DNA of 31,847 bases from a virus. The stretch is from the IMG/VR virus record IMGVR_UViG_3300035188_000181, positions 1 to 31,847 of that record. The stretch is one strand, 5' to 3'. The first letter of the stretch is position 1. Each line of letters opens with the position of its first letter. The notes beneath the pieces were generated by a model. That model ran no database searches, had not been told where the DNA came from, and saw only the letters and a program-made list of their open reading frames with translations. Made by a program: the position numbers and the translations under genes. Of the stretch, positions 21,705 through 28,470 are shown in pieces.

Positions 21705-22252
21705 CCGGCCCTCAACATTTCAAAAGGAAGTTCGTCACCCTTCGACCAATCGACTGGCGGCTTCGTGCTCTCAGGATCAATTCTGATTTGACGCACCTTT
21801 GCCCCCGGCCAGACGGTCTTAGCCTCGTTGACCATTTCAAACGACCACAGCATCCGCACGACCTCGTCGATCGACCAGACCACCGCCGCACGATCCTCGT
21901 GCGCCACCCGCCAGGCGCCTTCCGGCCCGTCTACGACGACCAGGAGCCTGCCATCTGGTAGCCGCCCCTCAAGGCGCTTCGGGCTGATGGGTTCGCAGCC
22001 GTCAGCTTCGGCCTCCCTGTCAAGCCGCATCCACGCCGCCCGCATCCTGGTCGCCTGGATCTCCTGCTCTGCGAGGTATCCGGTTTCGCAGGCGGCGTTG
22101 AGCTTCTCGAACTGCGACCAGAACTTTCCCGCCAACTCTGGGTTGATGCCCGCCACAAGTCGGGGCAGGCGCCCGCAGCCCCATTTCACCTCCATCGCCC
22201 GAGCGGTCTCGTCGAGCGCCTCGATCGCCAGCTGGGCGGCTGTCTTGCTCAT
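21701..22252 (-). CDS. Hypothetical phage protein, 183 residues
   Basis: Starts at ATG 22252 in an ATGA overlap with the previous gene. The N-terminal half is helical (TAAQLAIEALDETARAMEVK, then WSQFEKLNAACETGYLAEQE), and the second half holds a compact beta part (GRLLVVVDGPEGAWRVAHED) and an acidic, Trp-containing C-terminus. No cysteine cluster, nucleotide-binding loop or membrane segment is seen. It lies in the GC-rich stretch that begins here and continues through the primase, so it was probably acquired together with the replication genes. I do not recognise its family. A role in replication or in control of late transcription would be a guess from position only. Confidence 0.6.
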   Translation of the reverse strand: MSKTAAQLAIEALDETARAMEVKWGCGRLPRLVAGINPELAGKFWSQFEKLNAACETGYLAEQEIQATRMRAAWMRLDREAEADGCEPISPKRLEGRLPDGRLLVVVDGPEGAWRVAHEDRAAVVWSIDEVVRMLWSFEMVNEAKTVWPGAKVRQIRIDPESTKPPVDWSKGDELPFEMLRAG

Positions 22253-22788
22253 GCTGATCTCCGTCGCTTGCTCTTGACGATCTTGATTTCAGCCTGGATG
22301 CCCCTGGCCTTGGCCTTGAGGTTCCTGACCTCACCCTGCAGCCTCGAAACCTCGGTAAAATGCGGCTTCAATTCTTCCCTCTGCGCGTCAAGCCGTCTGA
22401 TCGCCGACAACCTGAACCCCGCCTGCTGGCCGCCGATCTTGAAGCCCTCATCCCTGACCATCTCCTCGTGCTGGCGAGAAACCTCCCGCCAAAGATCCCA
22501 CCAGGGGGCAACTTTCGCCTGTTGCCAGGTCAACTCCCTGGCCTTCTCCGCCATAGCGTCCATCACCTGACGCAGGGTAAGCTCAAGCTCCGCCAGATCA
22601 TCATCGCCCGCAGCAAAAAGGCCATTGGGATTGCGCTCGCGTGCAAAACTGCGCAATTCATGGAGCGGTTTTGCGCGCTCTTTGCGCAAATCCCTATGGC
22701 TTAGGGATTTGTTTTTTTGCGCACCCCCTGTTTGCGCAAATGTGCGCAAATGCCCAAAGTGATTTGCGCACATTTCCGGGCTACCCAT
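22249..22788 (-). CDS. Hypothetical coiled-coil protein; first 60 residues cross the repeat cluster
   Basis: A 179-residue frame from ATG 22788, which overlaps the primase stop by eight bases. The C-terminal half is a long charged helix (RRLDAQREELKPHFTEVSRL then QGEVRNLKAKARGI) ending in a basic KSKRRRSA tail, so it is likely an elongated or DNA-associated protein. The first 60 residues (MCANHFGHLRTFAQTGGAQK) are translated from the TGCGCA repeat cluster and look low in protein character. The true start may be an internal codon such as the ATG for MDAMAEKARE, leaving 22.6-22.78 kb as a control region. There is only a weak ribosome binding site before ATG 22788. Confidence 0.5.
   Translation of the reverse strand: MGSPEMCANHFGHLRTFAQTGGAQKNKSLSHRDLRKERAKPLHELRSFARERNPNGLFAAGDDDLAELELTLRQVMDAMAEKARELTWQQAKVAPWWDLWREVSRQHEEMVRDEGFKIGGQQAGFRLSAIRRLDAQREELKPHFTEVSRLQGEVRNLKAKARGIQAEIKIVKSKRRRSA
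22650..22775. repeat. Cluster of TGCGCA motifs with a perfect 14-bp inverted repeat
   Basis: Six TGCGCA hexamers start at 22650, 22683, 22718, 22733, 22743 and 22765. Two are exact TTTGCGCAAA palindromes (22681-22690 and 22731-22740). AAATGTGCGCAAAT (22738-22751) and ATTTGCGCACATTT (22762-22775) form a perfect 14-base inverted repeat with a ten-base spacer. A related palindrome CTTGCGCAAG lies at 25137-25146, just upstream of the primase gene. The cluster looks like binding sites for a protein: an origin with iterons, a ParB-type centromere or an operator. Confidence 0.6.
22688..22718 (+). terminator. Hairpin with T run on the plus strand inside the repeat cluster
   Basis: AAATCCCTA (22688-22696) and TAGGGATTT (22702-22710) form a perfect nine-pair stem with a five-base loop, followed by GTTTTTTT. 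On the plus strand this looks like an intrinsic terminator that would stop antisense transcription. Minus-strand transcripts have the A run before the hairpin and would not be stopped. Confidence 0.35.
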
Positions 22789-25072
22789 TTGAGGCCCCCA
22801 CGATCTCCGCCCAAGCGGTTTTGTTAACCTTTACGGCCGTCGCTTCCCGCCTCCTGACCTCCACCTTTTCGATCGTCAAAACGCCCGAGCTGATCCAGGC
22901 GGCGACAGCCCTCTTGGCCTCCTCCTCCTCCATCCCGTGATCCATCAGCACCTGGCCTACCCAACGTTTGGAGCCGCCCCTGCTGCTCTCGCCGTATGGG
23001 ATGCCAGTCTGCTTGCCGTCGTCGTCGATCACCCCCAGGTCGATCGCCTGCAGGATGCTGTTGATGGTGTCCTTGCTGACCTTGTGGAACGGCCCCGGAA
23101 CCTCCCACCTGGTCGCGACGCCGACGTGGTCGCCGTCGGCTCCCATGACGCCATTCGCCAGGGCGACGTTTTCGAGCATGTACCAGTCCGAATGCTCCGC
23201 CGGCGGCGCCAGGTTGGCCTTGTCAGAGTAAGTGCGGAAATGCAGCCTCCGGTTCTCGACGCCGAACTTGGCAGCCTCGGCCTCCGACATCTGGTTGATC
23301 ACGCGGGTATCGCGGGTGGCGTCGGTCAGCGCCTTGGCCCCGCGGCTGGTCTCAGCCGTGACCTCGCCGTCGCCGTTCTTCCTGGTATGGTGGATCAGCT
23401 CGATCGCCACGTTGCAGCGCTCGGCCAGCAGCACCCACTGGCGCATGACGGCGTTGATGGCGACGTTGTCGTTCTCGCTGACCTGGTGGCTGGCCACGAA
23501 GGGGTCCACCAGGAGCACGTCGATCCCGAGCGCAGTGATCTCCCTCTCGATCTCCCCCATGTCGGGCTCGACGATGATGGCGCCGGTCTTGGTCTCCTGC
23601 CTGGCGACGCAGAGCGGGGTGTCGCGGCCTGAGTTCAGGAACAGCCGCTCGCCGATGTCTTCGTCCGCGATCTTGTAGTGCTTGGCGATCGCTGCGAAGC
23701 GCCGGTCCAGCTCCTCGCGGGGGTCTTCGAGGCACCAAACCCAGACCTTCAGGGGCTTGGCCACGTTGACGCCCAGTAGCGGCTTGCCGGTGACCATCGC
23801 CATAGCCTCGACGAAGGTCAGGGATGACTTGCCGACGCCGCCGGGGGCGACGGTCGCAGAGACGAAGCGGCGGATCAGGTGACGGCCATAGACCCAGTCG
23901 CGAGGCGGGATCTGGTCTTCGGGCACCAGCCTGAAGGGTGATGCCTTGATGCCGCTCTTCTGCACCAGCTCATCGGGCTGCTGCTTGACCGGATGCTCCT
24001 GCTCGCGTTCGAGGTGAGCCGTGTAATCGGCCGGTGGCGTTGTCCTCGGCCTTTCAGCCTTCTGCTTCTCCCGCCACCTTGCCACGGCAGCATCCATGTC
24101 TGGCAGCCCCCGCAGCTGGCCACGTTCGAACCGTCCGAGGGTGGACCGGATCTTCCGCACCATCTCGTCAGGCCCGCGCCCCGGCCTGCTGAAATCGACG
24201 TGCGCCGAGTATTGCGGCCAGGCGGCGTCGTAGAGCTCCTGATCTGTCGGGACCGACCCGTTCTCACCGATCCACTGGATGAGAACGGCGAGGATCGTGT
24301 CCCGCATATATGCTTCTCGACCGTCCGAGATCTGCTCGGCGCCAAGGCCGAGAGCGCCGGTTGCGACCCGCTCAATCGGATCATTCTTCCGCGCCGTGTC
24401 GATTGAGTGGACCTTGGCGCTTGCAGGGTATGCCCGCATCACCTCTTCGAGGTCGTAGGCTCTCGGCTTGTACTTCAGCGGCACGAGCGACGTAAGTTCC
24501 GGCACCCTGCCTGGCTTTGTCGGCCATGCGATCGTTCCCGCGAGCCTCATCACACGGCTAGGGTTGGTGATCGCTCTATCACCCTCAAGGCTGTCAGCGA
24601 TACCTCCGAACGCAGCGCGGTGCTGCTCCTGGTCGGTGATGGCCTCGCGTAAAACCCAGTATGGTTGAAGCCTGGCGTGTGGATGCGTGCCCGTGCAGAC
24701 GATGAAGGACGGCGGCAGCGCCTTGGTTCTGGCAGGCGCCGCAGCCGACGACTCGGCGGTGTCGAGATCACCGGCGACAGCAGTAGTCGCGTAGTGGTCC
24801 GAGTCCGAGGCTCTGCCGAACGGTGGCAGATCAGGGTCTCGCAAGGCAACGCCGACGTAGACGTTGCACCGCTGCTGGTTCTTATCGACCGCATAGGCCG
24901 TCGCGGCCTCAATCTCGTCGGTACGATAGATCTGGCCAAGCCACCCCTTGCCGGTGTTGACCGCGATCTCGATCATGCCGTCGTCGTATTCGCCAGCGTT
25001 GCCGAACAGGTGCTTGAGGTGCTGGGCTATGTCGTCGGCATTCGGATGCAGATCCTGGGCGACTTCGGTCAT
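22781..25072 (-). CDS. Primase-helicase: AEP/RepB-like primase plus RecA-like (AAA_25) ATPase
   Basis: A 763-residue replication protein from ATG 25072; GTG 25078, closer to the GGAGG, is an alternative start. Residues 1-200 resemble a RepB-like archaeo-eukaryotic primase: CNVYVGVALRDP, the acidic pair in VAGDLD (Asp102, Asp104), LQPYWVLRE and NPSRVMRLAGTIAWP. Residues 230-340 are a helical linker (PriCT-like). From about 395 a RecA/DnaB-like ATPase begins with a P loop (VAPGGVGKSS, Lys415), VWVWCLEDP, a Walker B (IDVLLVDPF, Asp523) and LIHHTRKN. A C-terminal winged-helix-like region (SKRWVGQVLMDHGMEEEEAK) completes it. It should prime and unwind phage DNA. The gene is GC-rich (68% in a sampled line), unlike the tail genes, and lies beside the TGCGCA cluster. 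Confidence 0.85.
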   Translation of the reverse strand: MTEVAQDLHPNADDIAQHLKHLFGNAGEYDDGMIEIAVNTGKGWLGQIYRTDEIEAATAYAVDKNQQRCNVYVGVALRDPDLPPFGRASDSDHYATTAVAGDLDTAESSAAAPARTKALPPSFIVCTGTHPHARLQPYWVLREAITDQEQHRAAFGGIADSLEGDRAITNPSRVMRLAGTIAWPTKPGRVPELTSLVPLKYKPRAYDLEEVMRAYPASAKVHSIDTARKNDPIERVATGALGLGAEQISDGREAYMRDTILAVLIQWIGENGSVPTDQELYDAAWPQYSAHVDFSRPGRGPDEMVRKIRSTLGRFERGQLRGLPDMDAAVARWREKQKAERPRTTPPADYTAHLEREQEHPVKQQPDELVQKSGIKASPFRLVPEDQIPPRDWVYGRHLIRRFVSATVAPGGVGKSSLTFVEAMAMVTGKPLLGVNVAKPLKVWVWCLEDPREELDRRFAAIAKHYKIADEDIGERLFLNSGRDTPLCVARQETKTGAIIVEPDMGEIEREITALGIDVLLVDPFVASHQVSENDNVAINAVMRQWVLLAERCNVAIELIHHTRKNGDGEVTAETSRGAKALTDATRDTRVINQMSEAEAAKFGVENRRLHFRTYSDKANLAPPAEHSDWYMLENVALANGVMGADGDHVGVATRWEVPGPFHKVSKDTINSILQAIDLGVIDDDGKQTGIPYGESSRGGSKRWVGQVLMDHGMEEEEAKRAVAAWISSGVLTIEKVEVRRREATAVKVNKTAWAEIVGASNG

Positions 25073-25088
25073 GCTCACGGCACCCTCC

Positions 25089-25433
25089 TCACTCGCCTGC
25101 GCTTGATATGTCGGCGCATGTGTGCGACGCTTTGCGCTTGCGCAAGACTGACAGTCGCTTTTTGACAGCTGCCATTGATCGGTCGAGCTTGTAGGCAATG
25201 AAGCGCGTTGGAGCGTTTGCAGCCTTCATTTCAAGCAAACGCTGATCGTCATCCGGCTCCCATTCATTCGTCGGACTAAACATCGCCGCTGACTGCGGAT
25301 TGTAGACACGGAAAATCGGAATAAAATCGCGGTCGACTTCTTCGACGATCACACGACCGCCTTCGACAAGGCGTGAAAAAGTGCCGTCGAGACGTTGGCG
25401 CATGTATTGTTCAGCGGAAATGTAGCCGCTCAT
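25089..25433 (-). CDS. Small DNA-binding protein with Myb/SANT-like helix-turn-helix
   Basis: A 114-residue protein from ATG 25433, overlapping the stop of a 34-residue frame (ATGA) and preceded by GAGG. Residues about 56-102 (NEWEPDDDQRLLEMKAANAP then TRFIAYKLDRSMAAVKKRLS) have the W-x2-D-x2-L spacing and third helix of SANT/Myb-like or GcrA-like domains. The N-terminal half (MSGYISAEQYMRQRLDGTFS) may be an oligomerisation or partner-binding part. It lies directly upstream of the primase and contains the palindrome CTTGCGCAAG near its 3' end. It could bind those sites, but this is not shown by the sequence. Confidence 0.65.
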   Translation of the reverse strand: MSGYISAEQYMRQRLDGTFSRLVEGGRVIVEEVDRDFIPIFRVYNPQSAAMFSPTNEWEPDDDQRLLEMKAANAPTRFIAYKLDRSMAAVKKRLSVLRKRKASHTCADISSAGE

Positions 25434-25534
25434 GCGGTCCTCGTTGTCTGGATTGCTGAAAAAATGTCGGGCCTGAGATCCCGCGCCGTGACTGCGACCG
25501 CTTTGGCGATGGCGGTTTCGGTCCAGTGGGTCAT
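25430..25534 (-). CDS. 34-residue frame between the ParB-like and Myb-like genes
   Basis: Starts at ATG 25534 inside the ParB stop (ATGA) and ends with TGA 25430, which overlaps the next ATG (ATGA). It encodes MTHWTETAIAKAVAVTARDL followed by RPDIFSAIQTTRTA, which could form one amphipathic helix. Two matching four-base overlaps suggest it is translated by coupling. No family is recognisable. It may act mainly to carry ribosomes to the downstream gene. Confidence 0.5.
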   Translation of the reverse strand: MTHWTETAIAKAVAVTARDLRPDIFSAIQTTRTA

Positions 25535-26385
25535 GCTGCGCCGTCCATGATCGGGCGGTCAATCCACTCCATCGCCCACTCGCGATCGGCAGCAGACGGT
25601 GCGCTGTTCCAGACCTTCTCAAATGAGCGCCGCCACTTGATCGACCGCTCGGCGTCGTCTTGCGGATGGTGTGAAGGCGGGCTTGTCAGGCGCTGACGTG
25701 CGGAAACATTATCGCCGGCAGCAGCGCGCGTGATGATTTCGTCCTGCTGTTCCGGCTCAAGGCGAGCAAGCGCGTCAAGCTCCTCACCCTTGTCGAGGCT
25801 TGTTCCGATCACCTTGTCAAGGTTTTTGATCTTGTTCCCACGTGCTGCGTCGAGCTGCACCTTGCGCTCGGAGGTGCCGGTCTTCCTGGCGGTGTCGGCG
25901 GTGAAACGATCAATCTGATCAGATCGCAAAGTTTGCGAACTGATTTTAGACGACTTTCTATCACCCCCGTTCTTCGTCTCCGGATGCATCTCCTCATAAA
26001 GCCGCTTGCGCTCCGCTACGTGCAGTGCGCGCTCGGCAGGCGTGAGTTCGCCACGCATGAGGTTTTCATCAATCTCAGCAAGCCGGGCTTCTGTGTCTTC
26101 CGCCTCTACGATGATCGCCGGTATACTGTCCCAGTGCAGGCGTTTTGCCGCCTCAAGCCTATGAAGGCCAGCTACAAGCCAATAACCGACGCCCTTCTGT
26201 GGGCGAAGCGTAATCGGATTGATCAGCCCAACCTCGCGCATCGAAGCGCAAAGCCTTTTTACATTCTCATCATTCAGGCCGCGAAGTCTTCGGGCGTATG
26301 CAATGCCGTTGACTGCAATGTGGCGAACTTGAGGAGGGCTTGCGCCCTCCTCCTGTCCAATCGTCTTTGGTTCGCGGCTCACCAT
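25531..26385 (-). CDS. ParB/Spo0J-like protein with ParB N-terminal domain
   Basis: A 284-residue protein from ATG 26385, overlapping the previous stop (TGATG). Residues about 20-115 are a ParB N-terminal domain: VRHIAVNGIAYARRLRGLND, LINPITLRPQKGVGYWLVAG, the phosphate-binding GLHRLEA, and ENLMRGELTPAERALHVAER. A central region (TARKTGTSERKVQLDAARGN) resembles the ParB helix-turn-helix. There is no ParA gene in the window. Stand-alone phage ParB proteins can act as DNA-binding CTPases or transcription regulators or aid replication. It may bind the TGCGCA cluster; this is a hypothesis. The second half is charged and probably flexible. Confidence 0.8.
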   Translation of the reverse strand: MVSREPKTIGQEEGASPPQVRHIAVNGIAYARRLRGLNDENVKRLCASMREVGLINPITLRPQKGVGYWLVAGLHRLEAAKRLHWDSIPAIIVEAEDTEARLAEIDENLMRGELTPAERALHVAERKRLYEEMHPETKNGGDRKSSKISSQTLRSDQIDRFTADTARKTGTSERKVQLDAARGNKIKNLDKVIGTSLDKGEELDALARLEPEQQDEIITRAAAGDNVSARQRLTSPPSHHPQDDAERSIKWRRSFEKVWNSAPSAADREWAMEWIDRPIMDGAA

Positions 26386-27828: not shown

Positions 27829-28470
27829 ATGTCGGAAAATCCCCACGACAAAAGCGGACTTGAGCGCAGGATTACTGAGCGTTTGCTTGAGCTTGGATTG
27901 AGCCCGCGGGCTGCGTCTGTTCAGGCTGGCGGCGGCCCGGATCTGATTCGCAATATCATCCGAGGACGGTCGCAGGCGCCGAGAGCAGAGAGCCTCGTGC
28001 GTCTCGCCTCTGTGCTTCAGGTGTCGCTGGACTACCTGATGACCGGCACTGGCAGCATTGAAAAAATTACATCCAACAACTTTGGCGCTAAACTTAAGGT
28101 TAGTTTACTATCTTGGGTTTCAGCTGGTCGTATGGCTTTTCCAGACGTCAGCGATGAAACCATTGGCATGATAGAAGAAATCGACCTGAGCCCGGACGGC
28201 GATTGGATCGCTCTCCAGGTTGTTGGCGACAGCATGGATCGCATAAGCCCGCCTGAAAGCATCATTTTCATTGATCGGCGCGACAAAGTCCTGGTGCCTA
28301 ACGCATGTTATGTGATCGCCAATGGCGACGGCGAGGCGACATACAAACGGTTCAGAACGAACCCGATGCGTTTCGAGCCCGTGAGCACCAACCCGTCTCA
28401 CGAGACGATCTACCCTCAGCGCGAACCGCTGATCGTCGGCCGCGTCAAAAAATCGATTCTGAAAATGTAA
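27829..28470 (+). CDS. CI-like phage repressor, S24/LexA family
   Basis: A 213-residue lysogeny repressor. Residues about 23-70 hold a lambda-type helix-turn-helix (LSPRAASVQAGGGPDLIRNI then IRGRSQAPRAESLVRLASVL). Residues 95-213 are an S24 self-cleavage domain with the predicted cleavage site Ala99-Gly100 (VSAGRM), catalytic Ser135 (VVGDSMD) and Lys173 (ATYKRF). RecA activation after DNA damage should therefore induce the phage. It starts at ATG 27829 with no ribosome binding site, in line with a leaderless transcript. It is divergent from the leftward lytic genes and ends at a strong terminator. It probably binds the TCCGC half-sites upstream. Confidence 0.93.
   Translation: MSENPHDKSGLERRITERLLELGLSPRAASVQAGGGPDLIRNIIRGRSQAPRAESLVRLASVLQVSLDYLMTGTGSIEKITSNNFGAKLKVSLLSWVSAGRMAFPDVSDETIGMIEEIDLSPDGDWIALQVVGDSMDRISPPESIIFIDRRDKVLVPNACYVIANGDGEATYKRFRTNPMRFEPVSTNPSHETIYPQREPLIVGRVKKSILKM

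Follow-up and report, generated by a model that had tools for sequence, protein, structure and literature searches.

The short repeats clustered at positions 22631-22770 of the window (the whole stretch of viral DNA analysed, 31,847 nucleotides) very probably form the replication origin of a phage, with iterons to which the phage's own RepA-type helicase-primase would bind through its C-terminal winged helix. That it does so directly, that this loads the helicase and that the array acts as an origin are inferred from sequence comparison. The observation from which this reading starts is that an array of several short repeats, denser than chance would give, adjoins an initiator gene, as is typical of iteron origins.

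The 31.8-kb virus contig encodes a lambda-J-like tail, tape measure, head, portal and terminase. A gene for a CI-like repressor lies at 27829-28470 and points to a temperate phage. Among the window proteins scanned (a subset) there was no integrase, which is compatible with a plasmid prophage or with an incomplete record.

A cluster of TGCGCA repeats adjoins the helicase-primase gene

The array comprises six full TGCGCA cores, at 22650, 22683, 22718, 22733, 22743 and 22765 (six in 121 bp, 22650-22770), and two copies with one mismatch, at 22631 and 22671. Its repeats are units of 7-9 bp in both orientations, two copies read TTTGCGCAAA, and the array starts 11 bases past the stop codon of the minus-strand helicase gene. 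Seven further TGCGCA are dispersed through the window outside the array, and over the whole window the hexamer is rarer than chance (13 versus 20 expected), so that its clustering is the only unusual feature. Dinucleotide shuffling of the window, repeated 200 times, served as the null model for clustering; TGCGCA then reached at most 3 per 121 bp, versus the 6 observed. Any 6-mer reached at most 5 per 130 bp and any 7-mer at most 4 in the shuffles; the observed maxima, 7 for GCGCAA and 6 for TGCGCAA, both fall in the array. A preliminary description of this DNA had reported an above-chance cluster of six TGCGCA at 22650-22775 and a perfect 14-bp inverted repeat. The positions and the shuffles bear out the cluster, and the inverted repeat proved to be the core of a longer element at 22735-22778 in which two iterons face each other, with 17-nt arms (22735-22751 and 22762-22778) that are 94% complementary and 10 nt apart.

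Between iterons, at about 22687-22711 on the minus strand, lies a hairpin, AAATCCCTA-AGCCA-TAGGGATTT, with a 10-bp stem and a single-strand DNA folding energy of -9.4 kcal/mol (z of -5.15, or -5.2 when rounded). It is possibly an unwinding element or a primase start element. A counterpart is clear in the relatives L030 and L049, weak in L004 and absent in L006, and we rejected universal conservation of the hairpin on the strength of the last two. CCC(T)TATAGGG-like hairpins or palindromes occur within many arrays (22687-22711 in the window; L030; L049-L054), and marine arrays contain CCCTATATATA. The cumulative GC skew ceases to fall at about 23 kb, where gene direction is unchanged, which is a weak sign of an origin.

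A lone palindrome, TTGCGCAA, occurs at 25137-25146, roughly 67 bp upstream of where the helicase probably starts. It had been described as a related palindrome, and the sites were thought to flank the primase gene. The palindrome does exist, but no TGCGCA was found just upstream of the helicase in L004, L006 or L008; this single site was therefore discarded as a second functional site, and the idea of flanking sites is unsupported.

The helicase-primase ends in a predicted winged helix

The gene upstream of the array (22781-25072, minus strand) encodes a primase-like N-terminal part, a RepA-type ATPase of RecA fold (AAA_25 in Pfam) and, at the C terminus, a predicted winged helix. Its listed open reading frame extends to 25198, and homology to L004 starts at the ATG at 25072. 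An AlphaFold2 model showed a RecA-type core followed by helices and a two-stranded wing, with a C-terminal pLDDT of about 80. With Foldseek, the best PDB match to the helicase core was RSF1010 RepA (1olo; E 8.4e-10, 22% identity).

The C-terminal domain (22784-23113, minus strand), a predicted winged helix by AlphaFold2 and structural comparison, is the proposed iteron binder. When compared alone by VIA-align it matched many winged helices with Z of 5-7; because none of these generic winged helices reached a Z of 8, we claim no specific relative, and P4 alpha's own domain was not among the matches. The model thus supports assignment to the winged-helix fold class without a particular relative. 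For this C-terminal region, Pfam assigned a domain in 0 of 29 members, a PDB sequence search returned no useful match, and Foldseek with the C-terminal model alone returned nothing below E 0.001. At the wing tip of the model stand Arg782-Arg784 (codons at 22847-22855, minus strand), which align with the columns that track the iteron in relatives (see below).

The array is conserved in position and follows the helicase half

In L004, L006 and L007 the array is kept in place, in order and at nearly the same spacing, behind helicases that are 64%, 48% and 42% identical over their full length. At most corresponding places L007 has TGCGGAA or its complement, and this coordinated change reveals which way the sites that read as palindromes in the window are oriented. 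The residues encoded by the array differ in these three relatives and the repeats shift frame, indicating that the conserved element is the DNA and not the overlying protein. The preliminary description had named the reverse pattern, amino acids kept and the DNA motif lost, as evidence against a DNA site; we found the opposite, with motif and spacing kept and N-terminal residues and frame not.

L006 and L007 share the window's helicase half and array layout but differ from it in the primase part. The locus L005:2-2290 is a natural chimera in which a primase part 94% identical to that of the window is joined to a different helicase half; after its helicase stop there is an array of ACGGGGGAAA-type units with a different hairpin. 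These comparisons indicate that the array belongs with the helicase half of the protein. When 14 window genes were tested, only the helicase was present at all of the loci compared (37/37). The likely binder of the array, which the preliminary description missed, is the C-terminal end of the helicase-primase itself.

The helicase-array arrangement is widespread and its repeats are lineage-specific

Alignment-based scans of IMG/VR and of plasmids of Hyphomicrobiales yielded dozens of viral loci, two Methylobacterium contigs and four plasmids. An exact search of viral contigs for the array pattern found three loci only, so that the family is not apparent from sequence by itself. Most relatives have 3-12 repeats, either no more than 40 bp behind the helicase stop or 390-1540 bp beyond it, one to three genes on; no clear array followed the helicase in L012, L016, L086 or L093. 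The repeat is specific to the lineage and uniform in all or nearly all copies of an array: TGCGCAA in the window, and TGCGGAA, TGCGACA, TGCTCCA, TGCGTCA, TGCGCCA and others elsewhere. The attached primases vary: L032 has a Prim-Pol domain, and in L051 the Toprim gene stands separately.

The Rhodoplanes serenus plasmid 1 (L053) and Methylobacterium indicum pVL1_6 (L054) are circular and combine the replication module with phage terminase, portal or tail genes; they are probably phage-plasmids, although not so labelled in their records. In many marine members a small gene for an HNH-like zinc-ribbon protein lies between helicase and array (L032:2349-2825; same position in L023, L036 and L063-L077). 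It had no Pfam match above the cut-off and is possibly a homing or origin-directed nuclease.

Wing-tip residues covary with the iteron

Covariation between helicase residues and iteron type was measured at 54 loci, in clades defined on the helicase core, over 399 alignment columns (L032 numbering); L071 was left out of the final statistics. Columns 665 and 663, at the wing tip, ranked first and second of the 399 by within-clade mutual information, with iteron labels that were assigned with the wing sequences in view rather than blind. In 0 of 1,000 within-clade permutations did any column match the value of column 665 or 663, in a test that treats clade members as exchangeable while the sequences, from metagenomic contigs, are non-independent. 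Two clades have an HNH-like gene between helicase and array; in these, the best wing column reached 1.07 of a possible 1.18 bits, and columns of the HNH-like protein or the helicase core reached at most 0.55; primase N-terminal columns were poorly comparable in this test because the contigs are cut.

Several wing-iteron pairs recur across clades: QRR with TGCTCCA, RK with TGCGCCA, SRH or ARH with TGCGACA, and QRH, NRH or MRH with TGCGTCA. Residues and bases do not correspond one to one, as RK also occurs with TGCGACG, and RRP occurs with TGCGTCA while other RR wings occur with TGCTCCA. In the clade to which the window belongs, L003, L004 and L006 have the TGCGCAA core in common but different wings.

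Near-identical pairs of loci display the same coupling. The arrays of L065 and L068 differ by few bases besides a change of GA to TC in 7/7 compared iterons, and the ends of their helicase genes are near-identical save for a 12-base run at the wing codons, encoding TSRHM or NQRRL; the proteins differ further upstream of the wing. Between L076 and L075 there are 15 protein differences, including the same S-to-Q, H-to-R and M-to-L wing change, and the same iteron change. L039 and L037 have 18 protein differences, none within residues 50-623, and L032 and L036 diverge in two islands, at the helicase end and in the array, on either side of a better conserved gene. Such covariation indicates recognition, that is, matching of protein to repeat, and not replication as such.

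Alternative roles for the array

Since covariation speaks for matching rather than for origin use, the array bound by the helicase might instead serve as an operator or in copy-number control (autoregulation, handcuffing, incompatibility), with replication starting elsewhere. Plasmid iterons often serve both origin and control roles, and the array does lie within an operon, just ahead of the next gene. We nevertheless consider a purely regulatory locus improbable: the array is downstream of the helicase gene, away from its promoter, a scan of 22200-25400 (such scans are weak) found no sigma-70-like promoter, and the hairpin and the GC-skew change suit an origin.

A role as an early or late operator for another phage protein would draw on the regulator genes nearby, the candidates being the HTH_17 protein, the D5-like regulator, the CI repressor and the product of the overlapping 179-aa ORF. 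This ORF (22249-22788, minus strand) carries the array in its first ~46 codons, its start overlaps the helicase stop, and it is kept in L004 and L006, with an alignable ORF at the same place in L007. None of the four candidate genes was found at the plasmid or marine array loci, whereas the repeats change along with the swapped helicase half in L005, and binding by one of these proteins seems quite unlikely. In the comparison of 14 genes at 37 loci, ParB, CI, HTH_17, the D5-like regulator and the overlapping ORF were each rejected as a conserved binder, not being common to the array loci.

More doubtful still is a centromere, in which the ParB-like protein (ParB_N; 25531-26385), encoded 2.7 kb from the array, would bind the repeats for partition; parS sites can take the form of clustered inverted repeats. 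Where ParB-parS systems keep the ParB gene with the sites, no ParB homologue was found here in L006 or L007 (~3.9 kb upstream of the helicase covered), nor at any non-identical array locus, and repeat identity follows the helicase wing. Of the three options in the preliminary description, the findings support the replication origin and lend no support to the ParB centromere or the late operator.

That the repeats are a mere by-product of the protein encoded at 22249-22788, an idea suggested by an ORF that is open through the array in 4/4 relatives with its start overlapping the helicase stop in each, is refuted by the frame test and can be given almost no weight: the iterons occupy all three reading frames in the window and other frames in relatives, the N-terminal part of the 179-aa product is unconserved while its C-terminal part is conserved, and in plasmid relatives the array is intergenic between annotated genes. 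Because the ORF is open in all four relatives, the array is probably translated all the same, as a poorly conserved N-terminal tail.

A proposed mechanism and its relation to known replicons

For the replication origin that we favour, the following mechanism can be proposed. The winged helix would bind the 7-9 bp iterons directly behind its own gene, and this binding would lead to assembly or loading of the helicase ring. The ring would open the adjacent hairpin or an AT-rich stretch, after which the attached primase would begin synthesis. Wing-tip residues would determine which iteron is read, giving each lineage its matched helicase-origin pair. The binding step is suggested by the covariation; loading, opening and priming are modelled on P4, IncQ and pRN1.

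The alpha protein of phage P4 combines primase, helicase and C-terminal winged helix, and the P4 ori and crr carry short iterons in both orientations. The present system is alike in its single primase-helicase-winged-helix protein (the winged helix being predicted here) and in its short iterons of both orientations. It differs in that P4 alpha joins a DnaG/TOPRIM-type primase to an SF3 helicase, whereas we found AAA_25 and an RSF1010 RepA-like RecA fold instead of an SF3 domain, and primases of several kinds, attached or separate; unlike in P4, iteron and wing switch together between close relatives. The IncQ/RSF1010 oriV (RepA, RepB', RepC) shares the RepA-type fold of a hexameric helicase (1olo; here from the predicted structure), iterons with a hairpin, and a dedicated primase. 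In RSF1010, a separate RepC reads direct iterons of about 20 bp, whereas the repeats here are 7-9 bp, of mixed orientation and apparently read by the helicase through its fused winged helix; no RepC gene was found by Pfam or PHROGs among ten proteins around the array. Our best reading is a system functionally like P4 alpha/ori, or like an IncQ origin fused into one protein, that is a member of neither.

In the pRN1 replicon the origin lies directly downstream of the primase-helicase-winged-helix gene, and a stem-loop is needed (PMC4234260, which also sets pRN1 beside P4 alpha). The layout of gene and then origin is the same, but pRN1 is archaeal, has an SF3 helicase and lacks iterons. Modular covariation of initiator and origin is already known from the PLE satellites of Vibrio cholerae, where, in RepA_N/ori modules and the nuclease Odn, the initiator DNA-binding domain and the origin covary and swap as a module (PMC8263062). 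There, a whole N-terminal RepA_N domain swaps and the iterons are ~30 bp, whereas here minimal alterations of the wing accompany 2-bp changes in each iteron of 7-9 bp. Diverse iterons among close relatives are likewise known, from geminiviruses, in which iteron positions are conserved and sequences are diverse, a diversity that is unexplained (PMC12548392); geminivirus Rep is a rolling-circle protein of single-stranded DNA plant viruses and is unrelated to the helicase here. In the open-access literature searched, outside which most subscription journals lie, we found no description of the helicase-origin family or of a wing-tip code.

We see about an even chance that this family of phages and phage-plasmids carries a specificity-switching origin, in which a handful of residues at the wing tip change in concert with all or nearly all iterons, repeatedly and in parallel, as a readable protein-DNA recognition code. 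Incompatibility of co-infecting relatives or origin-directed nucleases would drive the switching. The near-identical pairs L065/L068, L075/L076 and L037/L039 make two questions on classic iteron origins directly testable: why iterons diversify between close relatives, and how an initiator shifts specificity while keeping its origin. The family may also offer modular replicons for Alphaproteobacteria that do not cross-react with one another.
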